From Entrophospora sp. SA101 (taxonomy: Eukaryota > Glomeromycota > Glomeromycetes > Entrophosporales > Entrophosporaceae): a stretch of DNA of 64,000 bases. The first letter of the stretch is position 1; each line of letters starts with the position of its first letter. The stretch spans positions 36,169 to 100,168 of the forward strand of contig CAUDNR010004511.1 in NCBI GenBank assembly GCA_958430865.1. The letters run 5' to 3'. The position numbers and the translations under genes were made by a program. The notes beneath the pieces were generated by a model. The model made no database searches. It was not told the DNA's origin and saw only the letters and a list, made by a program, of their open reading frames with translations. Positions 1 to 29,828 of the stretch are shown here, piece by piece.

Positions 1-118
1 TGAATCTTAACAACGTAAAAATTATAACCAACAATAAAAAATAAAGATAAATATAAGATGAAGTAAAAAAAGTTAAAGAGATAAATGAAGTTATCAAAGA
101 GCCGAAGAGCAAATACAG

Positions 119-3010
119 CCTATTTACTCTATTTTCTATTTAAAATAAAATGAAAATCAATCAACTGTTAATATTTTTTTCAAAAAAATTAACTGTAATA
201 ATGGTAAATGATGAGAATACTTGCCTATTTATTATTTAAAATAAAATGAAAATCAATCAACAGTTAATATGTTTACAAAAACAATGGTAATGGTAGTAAA
301 TAATAAAAATACTTACCTTTTATTTATTATTTAAAATAAATGAAAATCAACAGTTAATATTTTTCAAGAATAATATTCCATGTAATAATAATGATGAGAA
401 TACTTACACTCTATATTTATTATTTAAGCTAAAGCGAAAATCAACAGTTAATATTTTCAAAAAAACAATTATATTGACTGTAAAATGATGAAAATACTTA
501 CAGAGGAATTCTATATTTATTATTTAAGATAAAACGAAAAATCAAAAGTTAAATATTTTCAAAAAACAATGATATTGGCTGTAATAATAATGATGAAAAT
601 ACTCACCTACACTATTTATTATTTAAGATAAAACGAAAATCAACAGTTAATATTTTCAAAAAAACAATTATATTGACTGTAAAATGATGAAAATACTTAC
701 CGATGGAATTCTATATTTATTATTTAAGATAAAACAAAAATCAACAGTTAATATTTTCAAAAAACAATGATATTGGCTGTAATAATAATGATGAAAATAC
801 TCACCCTACACTATTTATTATTTAAGATAAATCGAAAATCAACAGTTAATATTTTCAAAAAAACAATGATATTGACTGTAACAATAGTGAAATGTTGAGA
901 AAGAATATTTACAGTCTATATTTATTATTTAAAATAAAATAAAAGCCAACAGTTAATATGTTTTCAAAAACAATGATATTGACTGTAATGATGAGAATAC
1001 TTACCACCTGCCCATTATTTAAAATAAAATGAAAGCCGACAGTTAATATGTTTTCAAAAACAATGATATTGACTGTAGTAATAATAATGACGAAAATACT
1101 TACAGCCTATATTTATTATTTAAGATAAAACGAAAGCCAACAGTTAATATGTTTTCAAAAACAATGATATTGACTGTAATATAATGATGAAAATACTTAC
1201 CATCTATTTATTATTTAAGATAAAACGAAAATCAACAGTTAATAAATATGTTTTCAAAAACAATGATATCGACTGTAGTAATAATAATGATGAGAATACT
1301 TACAGCCTATATTTATTATTTAAAATAAAACAAAAATCAACAGTTAATATGTTTTCAAAAACAATGATATTGACTGTAATAATAGTGAAATGATGAGAAT
1401 ACTTACATGCTATTTATTACATAAAATAAAACAAAAATCAACAGTTAATAAACAATGATATCGACTGTAGTAATAATGATGATGAGAATACTTACCGCCT
1501 ATATTTATTATTTAAAATAAAACGAAAATCAATAGTTAATATTTTCAGAAAAACAATGATATTGACTGTAATAATAGTGAAATGATGAAAATACTTACTT
1601 CCTATATTTATTATTTAAGATAAAACGAAAATCAACAGTTAATATGTTTTCAAAAACAATGATATTAATAGTGAAATGATGAGAATACTTACAATCTATT
1701 TATTATTTAAGATAAAACGAAAATCAACAGTTAATATTTTCAGAAAAACAATGATATTGACTGTAATAATAGTGAAATGATGAGAATACTTACCAACTAT
1801 TTATTATTTAAGATAAAACGAAATCAACAGTTAATAAATATGTTTCAAAAACAATGATATCGACTGTAGTAATAATAATGACGAGAATACTTACATCCTA
1901 TATTTATTATTTAAGATAAATCGAAAATCAACAGTTAATATGTTTCAAAAACAATGATATTAGTAGTGAAATAATAAAAACACTCACACACTATTTATCA
2001 TTTAAGATAAAACGAAAATCAACAGTTAATATTTTCAAAAAAACAATGATATTGACTGTAACAATAGTGAAATGATGAGAATACTTGCATCCTATATTTA
2101 TTATTTAAAATAGAAAATCAACAGTTAATATGTTTTCAAAAACTATGATATTGACTGTAACAATGATGAGAATACTTACCACCTACCCATTATTTAAAAT
2201 AAAATGAAAGCCAACAGTTAATATGTTTTCAAAAACAATGATATTGACTGTAGTGATAATAATGATGAGAATACTTACGTTCTATATTTATTATATAAGA
2301 TAAAACGAAATCAATAGTTAATATTTTCAGAAAAACAATGATATTGACTGTAACAATAGTGAAATGTTGAGAAAGAATATTTACAGTCTATATTTATTAT
2401 TTAAAATAAAATAAAAGCCAACAGTTAATATGTTTTCAAAAACAATGATATTGACTGTAATGATGAGAATACTTACCACCTGCCCATTATTTAAAATAAA
2501 ATGAAAGCCGACAGTTAATATGTTTTCAAAAACAATGATATTGACTGTAGTAATAATAATGATGAGAATACTTACGTTCTATATTTATTATATAAGATAA
2601 AACGAAAATCAATAGTTAATATTTTCAGAAAAACAATGATATTGACTGTAACGATAGTGAAATGATGAGAAAGAATACTTACAGTCTAATATTTATTATT
2701 TAAAATAAAATGAAAGCCAACAGTTAATATGTTTTCAAAAACAATGATATTGAATGTAATGATGAGAATACTTACCACCTACCCATTATTTAAAATAAAA
2801 CGAAAATCAACAGTTAATATTTTCAAAAAACAATAATATTGACTGTAATAATACTACAAAAAATACTTACTTGACTATTTATTATTTAAAATAAAATGAA
2901 AACCAGTAATTAATATTTTTTCAAAAACAATGATATTGACTATAATAATAGTACAAAAATACTTACGGGCCTATTTATTATTTAAAATCAAATAAAACCC
3001 AATAGTTAGT
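119..3010 (-). repeat. Tandem array of ~29 intron-like units, ~90-110 bp each
   Basis: On the minus strand each unit reads: donor GTAAGTATT (variants GTGAGTATT, GCAAGTATT, GTAAATATT), a short A/T-rich stretch, the branch-site-like ATTAAC about 40 nt before the acceptor, a pyrimidine-rich stretch, and acceptor AAATAG or AAATATAG (GGGCAG or GGGTAG in five units). The intron body is strongly conserved between units while the bases between acceptor and next donor vary. A higher-order repeat is visible: a three-unit block with core codons GTG, ACT, AAC recurs at 2776/2683/2576 and 2477/2385/2279, and a two-unit block recurs at 810-701 and 611-502. The conserved units show repeated local duplication. 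The splicing reading is inference from splice signals. Confidence 0.9.
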
Positions 3011-3168
3011 AATTTTTCAAAAACAATTATACGAATATATTTATTGTAATAGTAAATAAATAATAATAACAAAGTACTTCGCCTCGCCAAATTATTGTTA
3101 TGAGTTGGGCTTGCTAAAGCCATGGCAGCGAAGATAATCAAAAAGAGAAGAGAAATATTGAATTTCAT
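607..3168 (-). CDS. Candidate secreted peptide gene built from single-codon microexons
   Basis: Exon 1 (3168-3078) starts with ATG and encodes a signal peptide (MKFNISLLFLIIFAAMALAS) then PTHNNNLARR, with a dibasic RR that could be a Kex2 site. Its best donor is GTACTT, leaving phase 1. Two 4-nt exons follow (2970-2967 GCCC; 2874-2871 TCAA), returning the frame to phase 0. Then come 20 consecutive 3-nt exons with left ends at 2776, 2683, 2576, 2477, 2385, 2279, 2180, 2089, 1988, 1895, 1794, 1693, 1599, 1496, 1407, 1304, 1201, 1104, 1005 and 913. Phase 0 is the only phase without stops across them (it starts V-T-N-V-T-N). Exons of 6 (810-805), 10 (710-701) and 5 nt (611-607) lead to a TAG at 609-607, giving about 59 residues if all exons are used. 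Units further left (510-502, 410-408, two zero-length sites, terminal exon from 119 down) may serve other isoforms. No family recognised; expression unknown. Confidence 0.45.
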
Positions 3169-4637: not shown

Positions 4638-5456
4638 TTGGTGACACAAGCAACGATAGCATGTGTCCAAAGGAAATCCCAAACATGGATTCTCAAACAT
4701 AAAAAATCGGACGGTGGGTTATACTTTGATATGGGACCTAATTTACTCCTTGCTAAATTTACAATTAATATAATAGAACTTGGAGGGGAAGCAATAAAAT
4801 TAACATCGCTGATAAATCACGCTCTTATTAGTCATGTAATCCGTTATACTGAAATTGATTTCATACCATATCCTCCAAATGTTATCCCACAAAGAAATAA
4901 TATCTTTAACCTTTTCTTAGGGTTCAAGGCCAAGCCAGTATCTCAAATTAATTATGACCTTGTGAACCCAATTATTTGGCATATAGAAAATATCTGGTGT
5001 AATGGAGATAAAGTTCTTTCCACATATATTCTCAAATGGTTTGCGTTTCTAGTCCAATATCCAGCAATAATTCCTGGAACTATTCTTGTTTTGCGTTCAC
5101 CACCACGATGTGGGAAAAATATCATTACTGATTTTATTCGAAAAAGTTTATTTGGTCCAGAACTTGTATATTCAACATCCGATCTCGGAAAAATATTAGG
5201 AAAATTCAACAGTCCTATTCAAGGACGCAAACTTATTATTATGAATGAAACAGGAATGGTTAGTGGAGAATGGCATAAGGCAAATGACCACTTAAAGTCT
5301 TTAATCACAGAAGATTATGTCTCGATTGAACGTAAAGGAATGGAATCAATTGATTGTGGTCATTTTCCTGGATTTATAGTATTAAGTAATCACGATGCCC
5401 CAATTCGCGTTGAACAAGGAGATGGTCGTGTTGTGTGTTTAGATGTCTCACCTTGA
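4638..5456 (+). CDS. D5-like superfamily 3 helicase, N-truncated, ends at in-frame TGA
   Basis: The open frame begins with TTG and has no ATG before residue 32, so the 5' end (where a primase domain often sits in D5-type proteins) is probably missing. Visible SF3 motifs: Walker A-like SPPRCGKN (K160), Walker B-like KLIIMNET (about 198-205), sensor-1 LSN (N251) and a downstream GDGR with a candidate arginine finger (R264). The family unwinds DNA at replication forks in large DNA viruses and plasmids. The frame stops at TGA 5454-5456, but the same frame continues with expected D5 C-terminal sequence in the next entry, so the stop splits one protein. Family call from motifs is fairly firm; whether it is active is not known. 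Confidence 0.75.
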   Translation: MVTQATIACVQRKSQTWILKHKKSDGGLYFDMGPNLLLAKFTINIIELGGEAIKLTSLINHALISHVIRYTEIDFIPYPPNVIPQRNNIFNLFLGFKAKPVSQINYDLVNPIIWHIENIWCNGDKVLSTYILKWFAFLVQYPAIIPGTILVLRSPPRCGKNIITDFIRKSLFGPELVYSTSDLGKILGKFNSPIQGRKLIIMNETGMVSGEWHKANDHLKSLITEDYVSIERKGMESIDCGHFPGFIVLSNHDAPIRVEQGDGRVVCLDVSP

Positions 5457-8781: not shown

Positions 8782-9078
8782 ATGGAGCGTTTAACCGATC
8801 AATACGTTAAAAGAGATAGTTCGAGACGTTTTACCTGTCCATATATTAAAAGAGATGGTTCGATTTGCAGAAAAAGTTGCTGGCAACCTGAAGGGTGTTC
8901 GTTGCACTGGAAATTATATGAAAAAAATGTGGCAAAAAATTTAGCAAAAATTCCTTGTGGTATCTGCGGAAAAGGAAACAATTCTGGGACAGGATACTGT
9001 CCTAAGCATGCGAAGAGGGTTTATTTTCGAAATTGGTATGAGAGACAAAAGGCGCAGAGGATAGAAGCTGATGCGTAA
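8782..9078 (+). CDS. Small Cys-rich zinc-binding protein, 98 aa (copy 1)
   Basis: ATG 8782 to TAA. Cys/His ligands in order: CPY...C (about 19-29), C34, C39, H42, then PCGICGKG and YCPKHAKR, followed by an aromatic-basic tail (YFRNWYERQKAQR). Same arrangement as the 80-aa protein at 7408; identical protein at 25148. Probably a two-knuckle nucleic-acid-binding or regulatory protein of the cassette. It converges with the 9243 ORF, 164 bp away. The ORF is conserved between copies although third-position changes occur near its end (TCTGGGACA versus TCCGGGACG, synonymous). Confidence 0.7.
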   Translation: MERLTDQYVKRDSSRRFTCPYIKRDGSICRKSCWQPEGCSLHWKLYEKNVAKNLAKIPCGICGKGNNSGTGYCPKHAKRVYFRNWYERQKAQRIEADA

Positions 9079-9242
9079 TTATACTCACTTTTGCCGAAGG
9101 TAGTCACTATATAACTATAGATATCAATTTTAAGCGACACAAAAATGGTCTTCGTAATGGATTTTTTTTTTTTACAAGTATCAATTTTAAGCGTCACAAA
9201 AACCCCCTTTGTAAAATATACCACGGACTCTAAATACATATT

Positions 9243-10169
9243 TTAAACGATATCGAATAAGTCCTGAGTATTTTGTGAGATAGAATTAGGAGGTGGTTCT
9301 AATTCATCAGGTGAGAGTTTACTATACCCGTATCGTATATCTTCTCCATTCTCGTAAAAAGGTCCTTCATTCGTTTGGTATGGTGGTAATTTTGGGGCGT
9401 GTACACTATTGAATGATCCAACTAGATGATAATGGATATTTTTTTTATTACTTGCTTTAAGTTTTATTCCATAAGTTGTTGAAAGTGCTGAATTTAATAA
9501 ACCAAGTTTTGCCTTATCAGATTTTAAACCAGACTTTTTAGCGCGCCAGGATGAATCTGTATTATCAAAAACTCGAGCCATTTTTGGTACTAAATTTTGG
9601 AGGTATTGTATCGATTCTGATGAGTTTAAGCATGCTCTAACCTCATCTACTTTGTAATTATTTCTATCATCAATATCTTTAACTGGTGTACAAGTCTTTA
9701 GTAATTCCAGACAAATTCGATGTTTTTCAGCTTGGGTAACGGTTATGAGTCTATCATTCCTATAATCTTCACGGACAATAGCCTCAACTGCTGTCCCATT
9801 ATCAGTACCTGCATCTCGTAGTTTCCGGAGATTTCTAAACCATTTCATTTCATCGTATCTACCATAATCTGCGATAAATTCCTCTGTTAAAGATTCAGAT
9901 GGTAATCCGTAACATTCTGCTATATGGAACCGCTTTAAAGCTCGCATCTCTTCTAAAGTTTTTTTTGGTTTATTTTCTAGAACCTCGGCTGTTTCGTGAT
10001 TAATAATATTAGCATTTGCAATTTCTTTTTCTTCCTTCGCCTTACAAACTATAGAATGTACATCCACTTTATTTTTTAATGAATTTAGTTTTTCTTCTAC
10101 ATCTTTAGGTAATGGTACTGAGTCTAGTATATCGATCAACATTCCTGCCTTTCGGAGGAAATCAACCAT
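9243..10169 (-). CDS. C-terminal ORF of the OBP-like helicase, in frame after TGA
   Basis: 308 residues from ATG 10169, ending TAA. It is in the same frame as the helicase ORF to its right, separated only by TGA 10196-10194 and eight sense codons, so it is probably the helicase C terminus. It has a central module (RALKRFHIAECYGLPSESLT, then EKHRICLELLKTC) that resembles in layout the ECA...TEkdR module of the ORFs at 5457 and 19455. The tail contains KKNIHYHLVGSFNS. No enzymatic domain recognised. Identical in the second cassette. Confidence 0.65.
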   Translation of the reverse strand: MVDFLRKAGMLIDILDSVPLPKDVEEKLNSLKNKVDVHSIVCKAKEEKEIANANIINHETAEVLENKPKKTLEEMRALKRFHIAECYGLPSESLTEEFIADYGRYDEMKWFRNLRKLRDAGTDNGTAVEAIVREDYRNDRLITVTQAEKHRICLELLKTCTPVKDIDDRNNYKVDEVRACLNSSESIQYLQNLVPKMARVFDNTDSSWRAKKSGLKSDKAKLGLLNSALSTTYGIKLKASNKKNIHYHLVGSFNSVHAPKLPPYQTNEGPFYENGEDIRYGYSKLSPDELEPPPNSISQNTQDLFDIV

Positions 10170-10193
10170 TCTCCATCCAAACAGATGGCGGGA

Positions 10194-11741
10194 TCAGAAT
10201 TTTTCCAACATATAGGCAACCCATAATCGGACTGTTGGAATATCTTTATTTCGAATAATTGATTCTACATCCGGAAATATACCCCTATTCTGTAGTTCTT
10301 GGGGGAGACATTCGCGCTTAGCTTTTAATAACCAGTGGAATAACCCTTGTTCTGTAATTGGGAGATTCGATGATCTTTGTTCAATGTGACATGTATATTC
10401 TTTAATACACCTCATGCGAAATAGCATCTGATTCGTCCCAGCATTTGTTTCTATATTACTTTTGAAAAGACAAAATGCTCGCTCAAATTTGGTATTAGTA
10501 CATGAGACTCCTATTTTTAACGTACTGGTGTATGCTACTATATCGACATCTTTCCACGCTTCTTCAACATCGCTAAAATCCTGTGCTTTCTCAACGGGAT
10601 CAGATTCGCCATGATATTCCTTAATACGCAATTCTGGGAAATCATCTCTAAGGGCACTAACGATTCCTTTTAAATCGTATCTAAGATGACATATAACTGA
10701 TGCACTCTTTCGCTCTTCAGGTTTCAATGCAGACATTTTTCTAGCCCAATTCCAAAGTTCGGATAATAAAGTCTCTTTGTTAGGTGACAGGTGAAACAAT
10801 TTACCTTTTTGGGGTTGATAGGTATTATGGATAACTGAAAATTGCTTACCTTTTCGAAGTGATTTAATCCAGTCTATATTGAGATCTGTTAGATCATTAT
10901 CCATAACAATAATACGTCTTGCTTCTTGAATTAACTTATATAACTGCTCTCTCGATTGCCCTGCTAAGCGAGTGTGGGCTTGACTATTCACGGATACTAC
11001 CTCATCAAGCCATAAATCATATGGAATTGGAGGACACTTACATTTTTTCTCACATTTACATTTATTAATAATGCGGTGTAAACTTTCTATTTGACATACT
11101 ACTCTTTGATGATCTGGAAGATTTATATCTTTAGTATCGATATCACAGTATGATTTGAGATTTAACCTTGTAGTGACGGCACTAGAATAAGTATGTCGTG
11201 TAGATAAAGCAAGTAGATTTACACCATCAGGGATAGTAAGATGTTCTAAAGTATAAGTCTTTCCCGTTTCCCAAGGTGATCCTACATATACATCGCCTTC
11301 TTTAGGTAAAGGTTCTACATATTGCTTTTCATACACTTCTCTTGCGGTAAGGGGGGAATCACAATTAACCCAAGCTGGCATTTCTAAGAAAGGCCATGGA
11401 AACTTTGGACCCTTCACCTTACGTATAACGGGTGGTGGAATATTATTTTTATTTTTTCGCTGGATTTTTTCTGCAATAGATGGATCATTGAAAATTTCCC
11501 CTGATTCGTCACGATTTTGCTGGAAGCATTTCACAATAAATGAGCCATTACCATATGCATGACCATACCACCTCTGATCTTTTTCGTGTAGGCGTTTACA
11601 TTGTGGACATTCTAGATATGCTTTCCAGTTAAAATATACATACCATTGAGAATTTTTTTCTTCGATATCCCAACTCCCAAGATATTCAGAATACTTCTGC
11701 AAAACTAGATTTGCATATTTTTTTAACTCATCATGATCCAC
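10194..11741 (-). CDS. Origin-binding-protein-like SF2 helicase
   Basis: 515 residues. N-terminal zinc module CPQCKRLH (C45, C48, H52) with C72 after an aromatic-glycine stretch; then SF2 helicase motifs: Walker A GSPWETGKT (154-162), motif Ia/Ib with CQIESLHR (216-223), DE box LWLDEVVSV (D246, E247), then TSTLKIGVS and a terminal NQMLFRMRC motif VI. CQxESLhR and the RMR motif are typical of the herpes/asfar-type origin-binding family. The frame has GTG, not ATG, at its start (11741) and the first Met is near residue 121, after the zinc module. It lies in the -1 frame of the primase ORF, whose stop overlaps its start, which fits a primase-helicase fusion. Role: origin melting or fork unwinding of the element. 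Confidence 0.8.
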   Translation of the reverse strand: MDHDELKKYANLVLQKYSEYLGSWDIEEKNSQWYVYFNWKAYLECPQCKRLHEKDQRWYGHAYGNGSFIVKCFQQNRDESGEIFNDPSIAEKIQRKNKNNIPPPVIRKVKGPKFPWPFLEMPAWVNCDSPLTAREVYEKQYVEPLPKEGDVYVGSPWETGKTYTLEHLTIPDGVNLLALSTRHTYSSAVTTRLNLKSYCDIDTKDINLPDHQRVVCQIESLHRIINKCKCEKKCKCPPIPYDLWLDEVVSVNSQAHTRLAGQSREQLYKLIQEARRIIVMDNDLTDLNIDWIKSLRKGKQFSVIHNTYQPQKGKLFHLSPNKETLLSELWNWARKMSALKPEERKSASVICHLRYDLKGIVSALRDDFPELRIKEYHGESDPVEKAQDFSDVEEAWKDVDIVAYTSTLKIGVSCTNTKFERAFCLFKSNIETNAGTNQMLFRMRCIKEYTCHIEQRSSNLPITEQGLFHWLLKAKRECLPQELQNRGIFPDVESIIRNKDIPTVRLWVAYMLEKF

Positions 11742-11743
11742 AA

Positions 11744-12835
11744 TTATTTTTTCTGATTATTTATTTTTTCTATGCTAAGTATACGAGGCCTTACTTCATA
11801 TTTCAAACTAGTAGGTGGTTGTACTCTTGCATGATCGAGCTCATCCCATCCATTATCTAGTGAGAATTGGAGTATACGCTTTACACGATCTTTTTTTGCT
11901 GATCCAATAAGACGGAGATTAAAGTTTCGACCAGGCACCCCCCTATCAATAAACTTACCATATTTTTCTCCCGTCAATTTGTATACTAGCTCTGTAAATT
12001 CTTTAAGTTCCAAATAATCAGTAAGAAGAGCTGGAGCATATAAAATATGGTAACTGCATTTATTAGAATTAGAAGATGTTGCAATTACTAATCCTTTGAG
12101 AATTTCCTCCCAACTGCAGTCAAGGATTTTATACAATACTCTTACGAAAGAAAAACAGATACGAATAAATACCCCTCTCGCATTGACTTTATCAACCTCC
12201 ATATTTTCTCGTGATGCATCGATGTCGATTACTGGTCTTAGAGGCCTTTGCCCATTAATGGATTCATGCACTCCAGGTATTCCATATACTTCAGAGATAT
12301 TATCTATAACTGAGAACTTTTTATACTCACCTTGTTCTACCTGTATAACTAATTTATCTACCAACTCCTCTCGTGTATACGCATCGAGTAAACTGATTCC
12401 TTCTTTTGCCCCATCATTAGGTAAGAGATAATCCCATAAATATACATCTTCCAGTGAACCTTTTTTATCTAACAAATCTCTGGCAGGTGGGGAAGCAATT
12501 TCACGAATTTTATTTAGCAAACCCTTTGAGGTAAATTTATCATCGAATTTTTCTTGTCTCTTAGTGAAAGCAGTCTTGGTGAAACCAGGATATATGGAGC
12601 TCACTTGATCTGTAGAATTTGTCGAATTAGACATTTGATTTTCTATATTAGGGGGTTGGGATATTGGTGACTTAATAGTACTTGTTTCGGTATCTGATTC
12701 ATAGTCGGAACCATAGTCACTGCAATTCTCTGATCCACTTTCGGATATATTATCACTATAAACATCTGAGTCACTTGAATAGTCATCGGTTTCCCCACCC
12801 CCGTACCTGATCACTTGTGTGTTTTGTTTGCTCAT
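11744..12835 (-). CDS. Archaeo-eukaryotic-type primase (copy 1)
   Basis: 363 residues from ATG 12835 to TAA. Acidic, Ser-rich N terminus (1-80), then the primase core: motif I VIDIDAS (D204, D206, metal-binding), motif II NKCSYHIL (S261, H263) and motif III FIDRGVPGRNFNLRL (D297), followed by Arg-rich strands. These are the three signature motifs of the AEP superfamily, in the herpes-pox/PrimPol style. Expected to make primers for the element's own replication. The last codons (CAG AAA AAA TAA) hold an A6 run where a -1 slip would enter the helicase frame. The 40-bp motif is 44 bp upstream, and the hairpin repeat array beyond it. Confidence 0.8.
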   Translation of the reverse strand: MSKQNTQVIRYGGGETDDYSSDSDVYSDNISESGSENCSDYGSDYESDTETSTIKSPISQPPNIENQMSNSTNSTDQVSSIYPGFTKTAFTKRQEKFDDKFTSKGLLNKIREIASPPARDLLDKKGSLEDVYLWDYLLPNDGAKEGISLLDAYTREELVDKLVIQVEQGEYKKFSVIDNISEVYGIPGVHESINGQRPLRPVIDIDASRENMEVDKVNARGVFIRICFSFVRVLYKILDCSWEEILKGLVIATSSNSNKCSYHILYAPALLTDYLELKEFTELVYKLTGEKYGKFIDRGVPGRNFNLRLIGSAKKDRVKRILQFSLDNGWDELDHARVQPPTSLKYEVRPRILSIEKINNQKK

Positions 12836-12878
12836 TTTTGGTATTTGGTTTTTTTATTGGTATGTTTCAATCTTTGTT

Positions 12879-12918
12879 CGATTATTTTATTAGAATATAG
12901 TTTGGAAAAGTTTAAATT
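12879..12918 (-). promoter_or_regulatory. 40-bp shared upstream motif (copy 1b), primase promoter candidate
   Basis: Same 40-bp motif as at 8575-8614 with a few substitutions in the left half and an unchanged core (TAGTTTGGAAAAGTTTAAAT). It lies 44 bp 5' of the primase ATG. Confidence 0.6.
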
Positions 12919-13011
12919 ATTTTTTCGGTCGGTGATATCAAAAAATGCATCGTTTTTAGTCGAATGGACAACAAAAATCGTGAACTCGATAGATAAATAT
13001 TTTTGGGCCTA

Positions 13012-13463
13012 GGTGTAGTAACCTGCAGTAATATATTATGAGAATTATGGCAGATTACTACACTTTTTAATGTCATGTTTTCGGGTATGTATTCAGGGTG
13101 GGTAAGTGCGGTAGTATATTATAAGAAAAACGGCAGAAGCCTACCTGTTCAATGGTATGTTATGGGTATATACTCCGGGTATGCTTTCGGGGTAGGTAAG
13201 TGCGGTAATATATTATAAGAATTATGGCAGAAACCTACCCATTTCGATGGTATGTTTTAGGGTAGGTAACTTCGGTAATATATTATAATAAAAATAGAAG
13301 AAGCCTACCCGTTTCAATGGTATGTTTTTGGATATGTTTTCGGGTATATATTTGATGACATGCTTTTGGGGTAGGTAAGTGCGGTAATATATTATAAGAA
13401 TTATGGCAGAAACCTACCCATTTAATGATATGTTTTCGGGTATGCTTTTGGGGTAGGTAACTT
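13012..13463. repeat. Array of five hairpin repeats plus a partial sixth (copy 1)
   Basis: Units at 13012-13063, 13096-13146, 13189-13240, 13260-13310 and 13368-13419, partial at 13450. Typical unit: GGGGTAGGTAAGTGCGGTAA, then TATTATAAGAATTATGGCAG, then AAACCTACCC, so the ends GGGTAGGT and ACCTACCC can pair. Spacers contain GGTATGTTTTCGGG-type runs. Located 177 bp upstream of the primase. Candidate origin or helicase-binding iterons; inference from position. Confidence 0.65.
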
Positions 13464-22858: not shown

Positions 22859-24142
22859 TTAGTTATCATCATCATAAAGGTGGAATGGTCTTGCCTGCTC
22901 CGGAGTCTGCCCTTTTTTCCGATAATTTACTACAACATAATTTTGCACAGGTGAAGTATGGTTGTCGGGGTTATGGCGTAGACATTCTCCAGCAATGGTA
23001 TAAGCATGAGCTATATTCTCGGCCTCATGTACTACGACACCATAAACAGCACCTATTTTTCGTAAGTATTTGGGAACTAAATTATAATCTTTTAAGAATC
23101 TATTGAACCATTTAACTCCTGGCTTACCTGGATCACCCATTCGTCCAGATGATATAGTGCTCTGAATCCAAGTGAGTAGTTCTTTGGCTCGTTCTTGATT
23201 CTTTTCCATAGATCTAAATTTTCTAGGAATATCTGGCTGACCCCGATTCTTTGCATATCCTGTTACTCCAGCATCTGTAATACGTAAAGTTGTAAGTTCA
23301 GCAGGGCGGATACAAAGCATCACCATAACATCAGCAAGAGCCTTACAATCAGGTAAAGTTTTAACATTATACGCATCTAATCTTTCTTTGACTGATTCTA
23401 ATGTAAATTCATCTGGATAATCAATTGTTTTAGCCTTTTTCCGATTGTCCATTTGGATTTTGTTAGCATCTTCTGTAATATCTGGGAATTTCGTGGCCTC
23501 AATTATATCAAATGATGCACCAAGCTTTTTTAATTCTCTTCTAAGCCATGAAAGACGTGATGAACCAGCATTGGCATTTTTTGCTGATAGGGCTAAGGCA
23601 TAAGCTTCAGCTCTTATATCCCTAATACTAAGCTTATCTCGTAAAAACCGATGTGCCATCTCTCCAATAGTTTCTTGTAAGACCTGATCTTTCGAAGAAT
23701 GGAGACTTTGTCTCTTAGAAATAACAATGTTTACTGTAGAACAGGGCACGTTCTCCTTGGTCTTATTTTCGTTTTCCTGGGCAGAGAATAAGGCTTCCAC
23801 TTGATCCTCACTAAACCCATATCTATTTTGCAAGATTCGTTTTGCTTTCTCTCTGACAATCTCTTCTTCCAAACTTTTTGGAGGCTTGGTTATGGCTATT
23901 CTACAATCACCTTCGACAATATTTATGTTTTTGGTTTTACCAGCTCTCTGATTAGGTATCAATATACTTACCTGCTCATTGCTAAATTTGAATCCTTCCC
24001 GAAGGCGTCTGCGCGCCTGATTTCTTTTTCTATCATCTGTAAGATTCTCGAGAAACTCAGAGGTACATTGACTAAGTTCAGATAGACTTGTCTTGGAGCT
24101 GAGATTATATTTTTCTACGATTTTAGTTGCGATGGCTGACAT
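22859..24142 (-). CDS. Tyrosine recombinase-like protein
   Basis: ATG 24142, 427 residues, TAA. N-terminal half helical and basic, with two similar segments (RRRLREGFKFSNEQVSILI at 44-62; AKRILQNRYGFSEDQVEALF at 100-119). C-terminal half has the YR signature: MLCIRPAELTTLRI (Arg I, R279), a beta-hairpin Lys candidate GYAKNRG (K298), YLRKIGAVY (Arg II, R361), CLRH / DNHT (H390, H395) and NYVVVNY (Y402 or Y407 as nucleophile). The His normally three residues before Arg II is Lys here (K358). Such enzymes cut and rejoin DNA through a Tyr-DNA intermediate in Crypton, Starship and other elements. I could not place it in a subfamily. Likely the integrase of the island. Confidence 0.7.
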   Translation of the reverse strand: MSAIATKIVEKYNLSSKTSLSELSQCTSEFLENLTDDRKRNQARRRLREGFKFSNEQVSILIPNQRAGKTKNINIVEGDCRIAITKPPKSLEEEIVREKAKRILQNRYGFSEDQVEALFSAQENENKTKENVPCSTVNIVISKRQSLHSSKDQVLQETIGEMAHRFLRDKLSIRDIRAEAYALALSAKNANAGSSRLSWLRRELKKLGASFDIIEATKFPDITEDANKIQMDNRKKAKTIDYPDEFTLESVKERLDAYNVKTLPDCKALADVMVMLCIRPAELTTLRITDAGVTGYAKNRGQPDIPRKFRSMEKNQERAKELLTWIQSTISSGRMGDPGKPGVKWFNRFLKDYNLVPKYLRKIGAVYGVVVHEAENIAHAYTIAGECLRHNPDNHTSPVQNYVVVNYRKKGQTPEQARPFHLYDDDN

Positions 24143-24296
24143 GGTTGAATGTTTTAATAGGTCAAGTAGTTTATGAATAATTCTTTAGGTTATATACACT
24201 ATAAAAAATATTTTTTCAAATCGAAATTAATTATCCCAGGTCAGTATATATACCCAAAAATTGAATGGGTGGCGATTAATGTAATTCTATCGAGAA

Positions 24297-25147: not shown

Positions 25148-25444
25148 ATGGAGCGTTTAACCGATCAATACGTTAAAAGAGATAGTTCGAGACGTTTTAC
25201 CTGTCCATATATTAAAAGAGATGGTTCGATTTGCAGAAAAAGTTGCTGGCAACCTGAAGGGTGTTCGTTGCACTGGAAATTATATGAAAAAAATGTGGCA
25301 AAAAATTTAGCAAAAATTCCTTGTGGTATCTGCGGAAAAGGAAACAATTCCGGGACGGGATACTGTCCTAAGCATGCGAAGAGGGTTTATTTTCGAAATT
25401 GGTATGAGAGACAAAAGGCGCAGAGGATAGAAGCTGATGCGTAA
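25148..25444 (+). CDS. Small Cys-rich zinc-binding protein, 98 aa (copy 2)
   Basis: Protein identical to that at 8782-9078, with two synonymous differences near GNNSGTGYC. Ligand pattern C...C-x4-C-x2-H, PCGICGKG, YCPKH. Synonymous-only change between copies hints at constraint on the protein, although two changes are few. Confidence 0.7.
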   Translation: MERLTDQYVKRDSSRRFTCPYIKRDGSICRKSCWQPEGCSLHWKLYEKNVAKNLAKIPCGICGKGNNSGTGYCPKHAKRVYFRNWYERQKAQRIEADA

Positions 25445-25606
25445 TTATACTCACTTTTGCCGAAGGTAGTCACTATATAACTATAGATATCAATTTTAAG
25501 CGACACAAAAATGGTCTTCGTAATGGATTTTTTTTTTACAAGTATCAATTTTAAGCGTCACAAAAACCCCCTTTGTAAAATATACCACGGACTCTAAATA
25601 CATATT

Positions 25607-26533
25607 TTAAACGATATCGAATAAGTCCTGAGTATTTTGTGAGATAGAATTAGGAGGTGGTTCTAATTCATCAGGTGAGAGTTTACTATACCCGTATCGT
25701 ATATCTTCTCCATTCTCGTAAAAAGGTCCTTCATTCGTTTGGTATGGTGGTAATTTTGGGGCGTGTACACTATTGAATGATCCAACTAGATGATAATGGA
25801 TATTTTTTTTATTACTTGCTTTAAGTTTTATTCCATAAGTTGTTGAAAGTGCTGAATTTAATAAACCAAGTTTTGCCTTATCAGATTTTAAACCAGACTT
25901 TTTAGCGCGCCAGGATGAATCTGTATTATCAAAAACTCGAGCCATTTTTGGTACTAAATTTTGGAGGTATTGTATCGATTCTGATGAGTTTAAGCATGCT
26001 CTAACCTCATCTACTTTGTAATTATTTCTATCATCAATATCTTTAACTGGTGTACAAGTCTTTAGTAATTCCAGACAAATTCGATGTTTTTCAGCTTGGG
26101 TAACGGTTATGAGTCTATCATTCCTATAATCTTCACGGACAATAGCCTCAACTGCTGTCCCATTATCAGTACCTGCATCTCGTAGTTTCCGGAGATTTCT
26201 AAACCATTTCATTTCATCGTATCTACCATAATCTGCGATAAATTCCTCTGTTAAAGATTCAGATGGTAATCCGTAACATTCTGCTATATGGAACCGCTTT
26301 AAAGCTCGCATCTCTTCTAAAGTTTTTTTTGGTTTATTTTCTAGAACCTCGGCTGTTTCGTGATTAATAATATTAGCATTTGCAATTTCTTTTTCTTCCT
26401 TCGCCTTACAAACTATAGAATGTACATCCACTTTATTTTTTAATGAATTTAGTTTTTCTTCTACATCTTTAGGTAATGGTACTGAGTCTAGTATATCGAT
26501 CAACATTCCTGCCTTTCGGAGGAAATCAACCAT
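25607..26533 (-). CDS. C-terminal ORF of the OBP-like helicase, in frame after TGA (copy 2)
   Basis: Same 308-residue protein as 9243-10169; the TGA separating it from the helicase frame is kept at 26560-26558. Since the copies are almost identical, this is not independent evidence for the stop being functional. Confidence 0.65.
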   Translation of the reverse strand: MVDFLRKAGMLIDILDSVPLPKDVEEKLNSLKNKVDVHSIVCKAKEEKEIANANIINHETAEVLENKPKKTLEEMRALKRFHIAECYGLPSESLTEEFIADYGRYDEMKWFRNLRKLRDAGTDNGTAVEAIVREDYRNDRLITVTQAEKHRICLELLKTCTPVKDIDDRNNYKVDEVRACLNSSESIQYLQNLVPKMARVFDNTDSSWRAKKSGLKSDKAKLGLLNSALSTTYGIKLKASNKKNIHYHLVGSFNSVHAPKLPPYQTNEGPFYENGEDIRYGYSKLSPDELEPPPNSISQNTQDLFDIV

Positions 26534-26557
26534 TCTCCATCCAAACAGATGGCGGGA

Positions 26558-28105
26558 TCAGAATTTTTCCAACATATAGGCAACCCATAATCGGACTGTT
26601 GGAATATCTTTATTTCGAATAATTGATTCTACATCCGGAAATATACCCCTATTCTGTAGTTCTTGGGGGAGACATTCGCGCTTAGCTTTTAATAACCAGT
26701 GGAATAACCCTTGTTCTGTAATTGGGAGATTCGATGATCTTTGTTCAATGTGACATGTATATTCTTTAATACACCTCATGCGAAATAGCATCTGATTCGT
26801 CCCAGCATTTGTTTCTATATTACTTTTGAAAAGACAAAATGCTCGCTCAAATTTGGTATTAGTACATGAGACTCCTATTTTTAACGTACTGGTGTATGCT
26901 ACTATATCGACATCTTTCCACGCTTCTTCAACATCGCTAAAATCCTGTGCTTTCTCAACGGGATCAGATTCGCCATGATATTCCTTAATACGCAATTCTG
27001 GGAAATCATCTCTAAGGGCACTAACGATTCCTTTTAAATCGTATCTAAGATGACATATAACTGATGCACTCTTTCGCTCTTCAGGTTTCAATGCAGACAT
27101 TTTTCTAGCCCAATTCCAAAGTTCGGATAATAAAGTCTCTTTGTTAGGTGACAGGTGAAACAATTTACCTTTTTGGGGTTGATAGGTATTATGGATAACT
27201 GAAAATTGCTTACCTTTTCGAAGTGATTTAATCCAGTCTATATTGAGATCTGTTAGATCATTATCCATAACAATAATACGTCTTGCTTCTTGAATTAACT
27301 TATATAACTGCTCTCTCGATTGCCCTGCTAAGCGAGTGTGGGCTTGACTATTCACGGATACTACCTCATCAAGCCATAAATCATATGGAATTGGAGGACA
27401 CTTACATTTTTTCTCACATTTACATTTATTAATAATGCGGTGTAAACTTTCTATTTGACATACTACTCTTTGATGATCTGGAAGATTTATATCTTTAGTA
27501 TCGATATCACAGTATGATTTGAGATTTAACCTTGTAGTGACGGCACTAGAATAAGTATGTCGTGTAGATAAAGCAAGTAGATTTACACCATCAGGGATAG
27601 TAAGATGTTCTAAAGTATAAGTCTTTCCCGTTTCCCAAGGTGATCCTACATATACATCGCCTTCTTTAGGTAAAGGTTCTACATATTGCTTTTCATACAC
27701 TTCTCTTGCGGTAAGGGGGGAATCACAATTAACCCAAGCTGGCATTTCTAAGAAAGGCCATGGAAACTTTGGACCCTTCACCTTACGTATAACGGGTGGT
27801 GGAATATTATTTTTATTTTTTCGCTGGATTTTTTCTGCAATAGATGGATCATTGAAAATTTCCCCTGATTCGTCACGATTTTGCTGGAAGCATTTCACAA
27901 TAAATGAGCCATTACCATATGCATGACCATACCACCTCTGATCTTTTTCGTGTAGGCGTTTACATTGTGGACATTCTAGATATGCTTTCCAGTTAAAATA
28001 TACATACCATTGAGAATTTTTTTCTTCGATATCCCAACTCCCAAGATATTCAGAATACTTCTGCAAAACTAGATTTGCATATTTTTTTAACTCATCATGA
28101 TCCAC
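26558..28105 (-). CDS. Origin-binding-protein-like SF2 helicase (copy 2)
   Basis: Identical 515-residue frame to 10194-11741: zinc module CPQCKRLH, Walker A GSPWETGKT, LWLDEVV, RMR motif. GTG at the start and -1 frame relative to the primase end, as in copy 1. Confidence 0.8.
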   Translation of the reverse strand: MDHDELKKYANLVLQKYSEYLGSWDIEEKNSQWYVYFNWKAYLECPQCKRLHEKDQRWYGHAYGNGSFIVKCFQQNRDESGEIFNDPSIAEKIQRKNKNNIPPPVIRKVKGPKFPWPFLEMPAWVNCDSPLTAREVYEKQYVEPLPKEGDVYVGSPWETGKTYTLEHLTIPDGVNLLALSTRHTYSSAVTTRLNLKSYCDIDTKDINLPDHQRVVCQIESLHRIINKCKCEKKCKCPPIPYDLWLDEVVSVNSQAHTRLAGQSREQLYKLIQEARRIIVMDNDLTDLNIDWIKSLRKGKQFSVIHNTYQPQKGKLFHLSPNKETLLSELWNWARKMSALKPEERKSASVICHLRYDLKGIVSALRDDFPELRIKEYHGESDPVEKAQDFSDVEEAWKDVDIVAYTSTLKIGVSCTNTKFERAFCLFKSNIETNAGTNQMLFRMRCIKEYTCHIEQRSSNLPITEQGLFHWLLKAKRECLPQELQNRGIFPDVESIIRNKDIPTVRLWVAYMLEKF

Positions 28106-28107
28106 AA

Positions 28108-29200
28108 TTATTTTTTCTGATTATTTATTTTTTCTATGCTAAGTATACGGGGCCTTATTTCGAATTCTGCATTAGATGGTGGTTGTACTCTTGTGTGATC
28201 GAGTTCATTCCACCCATTATCTAGTGAGAATTGGAGTATACGCTTTACACGATCTTTTTTTGCTGATCCAATAAGACGGAGATTAAAGTTTCGACCAGGC
28301 ACCCCCCCTATCAATAAACTTACCATATTTTTCTCCCGTCAATTTGTATACTAGCTCTGTAAATTCTTTAAGTTCCAAATAATCAGTAAGAAGAGCTGGA
28401 GCATATAAAATATGGTAACTGCATTTATTAGAATTAGAAGATGTTGCAATTACTAATCCTTTGAGAATTTCCTCCCAACTGCAGTCAAGGATTTTATACA
28501 ATACTCTTACGAAAGAAAAACAGATACGAATAAATACCCCTCTCGCATTGACTTTATCAACCTCCATATTTTCTCGTGATGCATCGATGTCGATTACTGG
28601 TCTTAGAGGCCTTTGCCCATTAATGGATTCATGCACTCCAGGTATTCCATATACTTCAGAGATATTATCTATAACTGAGAACTTTTTATACTCACCTTGT
28701 TCTACCTGTATAACTAATTTATCTACCAACTCCTCTCGTGTATACGCATCGAGTAAACTGATTCCTTCTTTTGCCCCATCATTAGGTAAGAGATAATCCC
28801 ATAAATATACATCTTCCAGTGAACCTTTTTTATCTAACAAATCTCTGGCAGGTGGGGAAGCAATTTCACGAATTTTATTTAGCAAACCCTTTGAGGTAAA
28901 TTTATCATCGAATTTTTCTTGTCTCTTAGTGAAAGCAGTCTTGGTGAAACCAGGATATATGGAGCTCACTTGATCTGTAGAATTTGTCGAATTAGACATT
29001 TGATTTTCTATATTAGGGGGTTGGGATATTGGTGACTTAATAGTACTTGTTTCGGTATCTGATTCATAGTCGGAACCATAGTCACTGCAATTCTCTGATC
29101 CACTTTCGGATATATTATCACTATAAACATCTGAGTCACTTGAATAGTCATCGGTTTCCCCACCCCCGTACCTGATCACTTGTGTGTTTTGTTTGCTCAT
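28108..29200 (-). pseudogene. Primase, frameshifted in a G run (copy 2)
   Basis: ATG 29200. Identical to the copy-1 primase through motifs I and II, but a run of seven C on the plus strand (28312-28318, six in copy 1) shifts the frame right after FIDRG, ending the ORF at 28283 after 305 residues. The remaining C terminus is open in another frame (28326-28108). The last part also carries clustered substitutions (NELDHTRV, SNAEFEI instead of DELDHARV, TSLKYEV). Either this copy is dead or the homopolymer length is a sequencing error. Confidence 0.75.
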
Positions 29201-29243
29201 TTTTGGTATTTGGTTTTTTTATTGGTATGTTTCAATCTTTGTT

Positions 29244-29283
29244 CGATTATTTTATTAGAATATAGTTTGGAAAAGTTTAAATT
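29244..29283 (-). promoter_or_regulatory. 40-bp shared upstream motif (copy 2b)
   Basis: Identical to 12879-12918; 44 bp 5' of the ATG at 29200. Confidence 0.6.
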
Positions 29284-29376
29284 ATTTTTTCGGTCGGTGA
29301 TATCAAAAAATGCATCGTTTTTAGTCGAATGGACAACAAAAATCGTGAACTCGATAGATAAATATTTTTGGGCCTA

Positions 29377-29828
29377 GGTGTAGTAACCTGCAGTAATATA
29401 TTATGAGAATTATGGCAGATTACTACACTTTTTAATGTCATGTTTTCGGGTATGTATTCAGGGTGGGTAAGTGCGGTAGTATATTATAAGAAAAACGGCA
29501 GAAGCCTACCTGTTCAATGGTATGTTATGGGTATATACTCCGGGTATGCTTTCGGGGTAGGTAAGTGCGGTAATATATTATAAGAATTATGGCAGAAACC
29601 TACCCATTTCGATGGTATGTTTTAGGGTAGGTAACTTCGGTAATATATTATAATAAAAATAGAAGAAGCCTACCCGTTTCAATGGTATGTTTTTGGATAT
29701 GTTTTCGGGTATATATTTGATGACATGCTTTTGGGGTAGGTAAGTGCGGTAATATATTATAAGAATTATGGCAGAAACCTACCCATTTAATGATATGTTT
29801 TCGGGTATGCTTTTGGGGTAGGTAACTT
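29377..29828. repeat. Array of five hairpin repeats plus a partial sixth (copy 2)
   Basis: Same units and spacing as 13012-13463, with GGGTAGGT ... ACCTACCC pairing ends. No differences noticed by eye. Confidence 0.65.

Follow-up and report, generated by a model that had tools for sequence, protein, structure and literature searches.

Predicted small secreted peptide genes with arrays of one-codon exons in Entrophospora sp. SA101

Here, we report a gene family in the draft genome of Entrophospora sp. SA101 (101 Mb in 2,123 contigs) whose members are very probably real spliceosomal genes that encode small secreted peptides at about one codon to an exon. The gene described first lies on the minus strand at the beginning of a window of 64,000 nucleotides (nt), the whole stretch of DNA that was analyzed (contig CAUDNR010004511.1, positions 36,169 to 100,168; C2004:36169-100168). 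An initial annotation had noted 20 consecutive 3-nt gaps between acceptor and donor signals on this strand, downstream of a signal-peptide exon; all 20 were recovered with the same triplets, from GTG (2778-2776) to ACT (915-913), and the array proved larger than the span first annotated, with 3′ exons and zero-length junctions also present downstream. The proposal that the triplets are one-codon exons of a secreted-peptide gene is supported by stop avoidance and by codon-position signals that shift along with the upstream phase.

The leader of the window gene contains a hydrophobic, signal-peptide-like stretch and ends in RR, a dibasic, Kex2-type site (judged by eye). The features of the gene are as follows.

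3078-3168, minus strand: exon 1, the leader, 91 nt, phase 1, encoding MKFNISLLFLIIFAAMALASPTHNNNLARR plus 1 nt
2967-2970, minus strand: exon 2, GCCC, 4 nt
2871-2874, minus strand: exon 3, TCAA, 4 nt, by which phase 0 is regained (91+4+4=99)
913-2778, minus strand: core array of 20 consecutive 3-nt exons (first GTG, last ACT)
805-810, minus strand: exon TGTAGG, 6 nt, encoding C R
701-710, minus strand: exon AATTCCATCG, 10 nt, encoding N S I plus 1 nt
607-611, minus strand: exon TGTAG, 5 nt, completing V and, with GTGAGT as the donor, giving an in-frame TAG
502-510, minus strand: exon AATTCCTCT, 9 nt, similar to 701-710 and, with TGTAG as an exon, lying 3′ of the stop
408-410, minus strand: exon AGT, 3 nt, probably 3′ untranslated region in the window gene
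316-317, minus strand: zero-length junction AAAAG/GTAAGT, a ratchet-like site
224-225, minus strand: zero-length junction AATAG/GCAAGT with a GC donor, a ratchet-like site
1-129, minus strand: presumed region of the terminal exon, in which AGTAAATAG follows an AAAATAG acceptor
226-3031, minus strand: whole tandem-repeat array, period ~101 bp (Tandem Repeats Finder)

The core triplets are, in order, GTG ACT AAC GTG ACT AAC GTG GAT TGT GAT, followed by TTG ATT GAA GCG CAT GCT ATG GCT GTG ACT, and when joined, they translate as VTNVTNVDCDLIEAHAMAVT. Stops in the joined triplets numbered 0, 4, and 4 in frames 0, 1, and 2, so the sole open phase is the one set by the leader and the two 4-nt exons, as had been claimed. 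The introns are 86 to 107 nt long and homologous to one another. With the TGTAG exon, the predicted product is leader-SPQVTNVTNVDCDLIEAHAMAVTCRNSIV-stop; a later parser gave an alternative at this place, a 1-nt T exon, with which the frame would go on. The terminal AGTAAATAG would be expected to encode S-K-stop in genes arriving in frame 0. Tandem Repeats Finder also reported a 295-bp, three-unit period across 130-3031. An RNA gene was considered as the identity of the array and rejected, with 0 Rfam matches in the window at the gathering score.

The 3-nt spacing recurs elsewhere in the genome. The pattern AATAAATAG-N(0-12)-GTAAGTATT had 334 genome matches versus 4 for the reversed pattern, and AAATAATGAATAG-N(0-12)-GTAAGTATT had 65 versus 0 (near-identical loci each counted); the spaced acceptor-donor pattern is therefore not due to chance. 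Among the 100 matches listed for the former, the gap was 3 nt in 89, 1 nt in 5, 4 nt in 4, and 7 nt in 2; for the latter, it was 3 nt in 62, 4 nt in 2, and 12 nt in 1. Over both patterns, the gap was exactly 3 nt in 151 of the 165 matches listed (out of 399); in the other 14, it was 1 (5 matches), 4 (6 matches), 7 (2 matches), or 12 nt (1 match). Where they could be placed, the 1-, 4-, and 7-nt gaps were phase-setting exons near the leader. Beyond the phase-setting exons, 420 of 481 nonredundant later units were 3 nt long, 28 were zero, and 14 were 1 nt; the remainder were 2 nt (1 unit), 4 nt (1 unit), 6 nt (4 units), 7 nt (1 unit), 9 nt (3 units), 10 nt (5 units), and 12 nt (4 units). These units come from a chain parser that mildly favors 3-nt exons; the motif-pattern searches do not. 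Core introns (n = 541; median, 98 nt) had lengths of 0, 1, and 2 mod 3 in 132, 184, and 225 cases, and length is thus constrained in the exons, not in the introns.

The array introns carry ordinary signals, namely, a GTAAGT donor, a TTAAC-like branch site, and a AATAAATAG acceptor. Of 375 units, 278 had a T[TC]AAC branch-like site 36 to 40 nt upstream of the acceptor, and 61 had no T[TC]AAC motif within 70 nt of it. In an actin gene of the same genome (L048), the donors are GTAAGT and the introns very roughly 80 to 200 nt long (by eye), and the array introns match these GT-AG, short-intron features. At locus L018, the donor GT is changed to GA in two units; skipping both would keep the frame.

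Triplets in phase 0 contained no stops (0/375 nonredundant triplets, 29 loci), with 17.6 expected from their own position-specific composition (P ~1.5e-8; P values are indicative, because related copies are not independent). The count was also zero when only triplets with different neighbors were taken (0/363 versus 17.7 expected) and when seven near-identical loci were left out (0/435; 20,000 column shuffles, mean of 19.5 and minimum of 7). When the first uninterrupted triplet runs of 22 genes were joined (runs of <4 triplets dropped), stops numbered 0, 13, and 78 in frames 0, 1, and 2. Array codons have T at 64% of third positions, and TGT, GAA, GAT, CCT, AAA, and GCT make up 199 of 375 triplets. 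The stop tests took in two loci with frameshifted leaders, L012 and L013, whose triplets are stop-free in phase 0 despite a 1-nt leader deletion and an early stop; these are either recent pseudogenes or sequencing errors.

Three genes (L031, L036, and L046) have a leader exon of 85 nt and then a single phase-setting exon of 7, 4, and 4 nt, respectively, so their triplets should straddle two codons. Out of 45 such phase-2 triplets, 3 were TGA, versus 0/375 elsewhere (Fisher p=0.0012). The frequency of T at exon positions 1, 2, and 3 was 0.26, 0.10, and 0.64 in phase-0 genes and 0.56, 0.22, and 0.11 in the three phase-2 genes; a codon model from phase-0 genes gave the phase-2 triplets a log-likelihood of −194.5 at the shift predicted from the leader, versus −232.4 unshifted and −246.1 at the other shift. 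A signature that shifts with the phase is not expected of passive repeats. The joined readings are DPPIQHDFPICCSGDPISGCDPRW in L031 and CDPDPHSIDPCPVFTTPPPPN in L036. The remaining frame is open too in these two genes, and in L031, a second AG could trim the 7-nt exon to 3 nt and put the array into that frame, although this agrees poorly with the codon signature. Within the intron between two CAC units, L036 also holds an insert with inverted ends (CTAAAGACTAGTGCCGTAA ... TTACGGCACTAGTCTTTA), which looks like a small DNA transposon tolerated in the array.

A DNA search of the genome gave at least 64 matches (40 of 106 candidates scored). Leader-exon matches to two leader peptides numbered 57 and 63 at E<=10; the weakest (E of 0.05 in the 63-match set) may not belong to the family. 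The initial annotation had suggested that one locus could yield a large family of secreted peptides; the claim is restated here as ~60 leader-exon matches in this genome, with many loci encoding different peptides. Stretches around leader matches were fetched (39, some overlapping or near-identical), along with one array without a visible leader. The leader was present in 38 of the 39, and an exon chain was modeled in 37. Exon 1 was 85, 90, 91, 94, or 115 nt long (1 mod 3 in 35/37 models), and exons 1 to 3 totaled phase 0 in 29/37. Modeled genes had up to 46 one-codon exons, and 53 introns were counted in one of them.

Leaders ended in KR or RR in 33 of 38 cases (read by eye), the exceptions being L014, L021, L029, L031, and L033. 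We coined the names A, B, and C for subfamilies that differ in leader and body. Subfamily A has leaders SPTHNNNLVKR and similar and many Cys-rich bodies (SVNCEADCNFPGCYPGCDELCPQASLKFLAEL in L020 and NPGVCWACGGCISCCCAECCTKEELAALRAALREKFLAEL in L021), subfamily B has leaders SPMGDNNNLEKR and similar and bodies rich in Pro, Lys, and Gly, and subfamily C has leaders PFDHSLKKR and similar and an array in a different codon phase. L050 (C139:43300-46700) has a further array type; by eye, its single-codon exons spell an Ala-rich, leader-like IALAAALAAAAAASHHE, and the sequence farther upstream in this locus is N.

It had been suggested that units could be gained or lost without a change of frame, and the only differences between some paralogs are 1, 3, or 4 complete units (0 other mismatches). 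CGG units number two in L024, L025, and L027 and three in L028 (L024 versus L028, 0 mismatches), L022 and L026 differ by four whole units, and L026 and L023 differ by three (0 mismatches). Such differences may be recent unit gain or loss, allelic differences, or assembly differences. Blocks of codons recur in otherwise different genes, namely, CYPGCDELCPQAS in L018 and L020, KFLAEL ends in L020 and L021, LANDCAEF in L013 and L016, and CDLIEAHA in L009, L010, and L015, which points to reassortment. Introns are mostly 75 to 95% alike in pairs. Base agreement of triplets was 36% where both flanking introns were 85 to 90% identical, 34 to 35% with less similar introns, 45% at 90 to 95% identity, and 71% at 95 to 100% (40 pairs); entropy was 1.4 to 2.0 bits at exon positions versus 0 to 1.3 in adjacent bases, which are motif-selected by the parser. 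Because triplet agreement stays low between similar introns and entropy differs in this way, codons have diverged far more than introns, through either strong diversifying selection or intron homogenization that spares the codons.

A profile of the predicted products was searched against 5.8 billion proteins and gave two matches, P0001 and P0002; a second profile search of these proteins gave nothing beyond the two. P0001 (jgi, 1,024-base contig) has the family leader joined directly to the Cys/Trp-rich RLPTVWCWDEQWAQWYDCRDPYVSE, a layout as expected of a putative spliced transcript. In P0002 (ena), the leader is followed by sequence resembling intron 1 (STSFIIIF...), which is what genomic DNA would give.

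We propose that the leader exon (a signal peptide and a short propeptide, usually with a dibasic Kex2-type end) would be followed in the mRNA by one or two phase-setting exons of 1, 4, or 7 nt and then by a run of exons, most of them one codon long. The ~98-nt introns would presumably be recognized by intron definition, which sets no minimum exon size, and would probably leave stepwise, as in recursive splicing, since an acceptor and a donor separated by 3 nt should not be able to carry their factors at the same time; the zero-length junctions at the 3′ end fit stepwise removal as its limiting case. As the unit is one codon between homologous introns, recombination between introns could insert, delete, and reassort single codons with the frame intact, so that introns would stay similar while codons diversify. 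The products would be secreted peptides of many kinds, often rich in Cys, that could plausibly act on a host as effectors or signals. Secretion, dibasic cleavage, and a host-directed role are suggested by the leader and by analogy with fungal effectors as described in the available portions of PMC5293756 and PMC11333574. More tentatively, and with somewhat less than even confidence, each locus could be a codon-by-codon peptide generator, in which single residues would be added, removed, moved, or skipped in frame by recombination and perhaps also by alternative recursive splicing; the dozens of loci would then amount to a library of secreted peptides that diversifies quickly, its codons altered by selection or by a dedicated process while the introns remain alike.

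The array might instead be a noncoding tandem repeat in one long intron, or dead, with an mRNA that joins the leader to the terminal exon. Tandem units of ~101 bp with introns so alike would copy splice motifs passively, and the array is known from DNA alone; such a repeat, however, predicts no tie of triplets to frame, whereas no in-frame stops were found and the joined runs gave 0/13/78 by frame. Neither would it account for a codon-position signature that tracks the upstream phase, gaps that are almost always 3 nt beside intron lengths free mod 3, triplets far more variable than their flanks, or a Cys/Trp-rich peptide after the leader in P0001, and we hold it to be very improbable. Passive amplification of splice-like motifs was rejected by the frame, phase, and stop tests. 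An assembly artifact of a long tandem repeat is more improbable still: near-identical copies do lie at separate places (L024, L025, and L027), and assemblers can miscount units, but the units differ, with ordered, distinct codons at many loci and the phase kept, and random error would not avoid stops. A sub-case of the coding reading is that the units are mostly alternative, with a variable subset of triplets in each mRNA and a peptide library at each locus. A 3-nt exon between similar introns can be skipped without a frame change, and the two L018 units without donor GT could be skipped; codon runs common to different genes (CYPGCDELCPQAS and CDLIEAHA) suggest, however, that defined peptides matter, and this sub-case appears unlikely, with perhaps a minor chance of being right.

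Several observations weigh against the reading of the arrays as spliced coding genes, in which splicing is predicted from genomic sequence. Eight of 37 models are not in phase 0: three form the phase-2 subfamily, L012 and L013 have the leader deletion, and L032, L041, and L042 are incompletely modeled. Later exons are not a multiple of 3 in 18/37 models. In six of these, the sole case is a final 1-nt call at the terminal acceptor, and in L009, L011, L012, L016, L019, and L047, most cases lie close to the stop; L018, in which two donors are dead, has a raw parse out of frame, L036 has a parsing slip, and L029, L030, L043, and L044 carry unexplained 1- or 4-nt calls. The 481 later units include the 28 of zero and 14 of one nt and 19 of 2 to 12 nt. 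The 3′-end AAA exons of L022, L023, and L026 have an alternative parse as 10-nt exons starting with TAA, and no terminal exon was recognized in the modeled chains of L010, L014, and L015. Differences in unit number between near-identical loci could partly be assembly error. The P0001 leader was identical to none of the 57 genome matches, so this protein is probably from another strain or species, and it may derive from an intronless copy.

Recursive-splicing ratchet points of Drosophila and vertebrates are not known to leave sequence in the mRNA. The arrays resemble them in that an acceptor is followed directly by a donor and stepwise removal is expected; unlike ratchet points, which, in the source text available, subdivide long introns, they leave one codon each time, dozens of times in a row. 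Zero-length juxtaposition itself is limited to the 28/481 later units, and core junctions hold 3 nt. Aphid bicycle effector genes have many micro-exons, longer than those described here and not known to lie in a tandem intron repeat; they are also alike in that exon-intron structure showed their common origin (per the accessible part of PMC11333574).

The closest kind is the micro-exon genes (MEG) of Schistosoma, which, in the part of PMC10526429 available, comprise 35 genes with exons of 3 to 81 bp, including 10 to 20 very short exons, and introns of up to almost 5 kb. Shared with MEG, as far as that text describes them, are a signal peptide, many very short exons, secreted families, and high protein variation; unlike MEG, whose exon lengths vary (PMC10526429, same portion), most post-leader exons here are one codon and the introns are homologous and ~98 nt long. 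The present family has a MEG-like architecture, with a secretion leader (by eye) and very short, frame-keeping exons, with frame exceptions in some models. The closest fungal secreted family considered is the SP7-like effectors of arbuscular mycorrhizal fungi, likewise secreted, repeat-built, and multicopy, with a signal-peptide-like leader and a dibasic site. SP7-like effectors have 6 to 11 hydrophilic repeats and a conserved intron that precedes the first repeat (excerpted text of PMC11333574), and dibasic Kex2-type sites occur in SP7 relatives (excerpted text of PMC5293756). Unlike them, the predicted products lack 6 to 11 imperfect hydrophilic repeats (by eye), and the excerpt of PMC11333574 describes no one-codon exons for SP7. 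A secretion leader and dibasic cleavage site are also shared with fungal Kex2-processed repeat proteins (KEPs), but KEP motifs repeat in the protein (available section of PMC6339444), whereas here the introns repeat and most predicted peptides are nonrepetitive.

The initial annotation knew of no such array, and among the papers listed from the open-licence PubMed Central literature, outside which lie preprints and most subscription papers, no title or abstract opening described genes with arrays of one-codon exons. Coding regions of one-codon exons between homologous introns would be a new gene architecture, which could also be called an extreme of the micro-exon kind. Genes of this kind would lie at the smallest exon size that can be recognized and would offer a natural way to see how a spliceosome copes with an acceptor and a donor 3 nt apart, dozens of times per transcript; they would also let peptides evolve by whole-residue gain and loss without frameshift, codons diversifying within similar introns. 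Because standard gene finders would probably miss such genes, the whole family (~60 leader-exon matches) could be absent from effector catalogues.

PF08354 (fungal FAS domain) had 0 matches in the draft genome, an absence that is weak evidence. Glomeromycotina are not known to have a cytosolic type I fatty acid synthase. The lack of a PF08354 match and the AT-richness of the genome suggest an arbuscular mycorrhizal fungus. The small-subunit primer sites AM1 and AML2 had 0 matches with up to 1 mismatch; ribosomal DNA may be unassembled. Elsewhere in the window, 8788-13455 and 25154-29820 share the same tandem repeats and two identical open reading frames (ORFs) at an offset of ~16.37 kb (9243-10193 = 25607-26557 and 10194-11756 = 26558-28120); of a third ORF (11744-12853), the second copy has a shorter version (28283-29218). 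ORF 10194-11756 had a Herpes_ori_bp-like helicase match; nearby are DUF5906 (4638-5453) and, slightly below threshold, a Tc5 HTH match (22859-24181). Because of the helicase-like, DUF5906, and Tc5 HTH matches, the region looks like large mobile elements.

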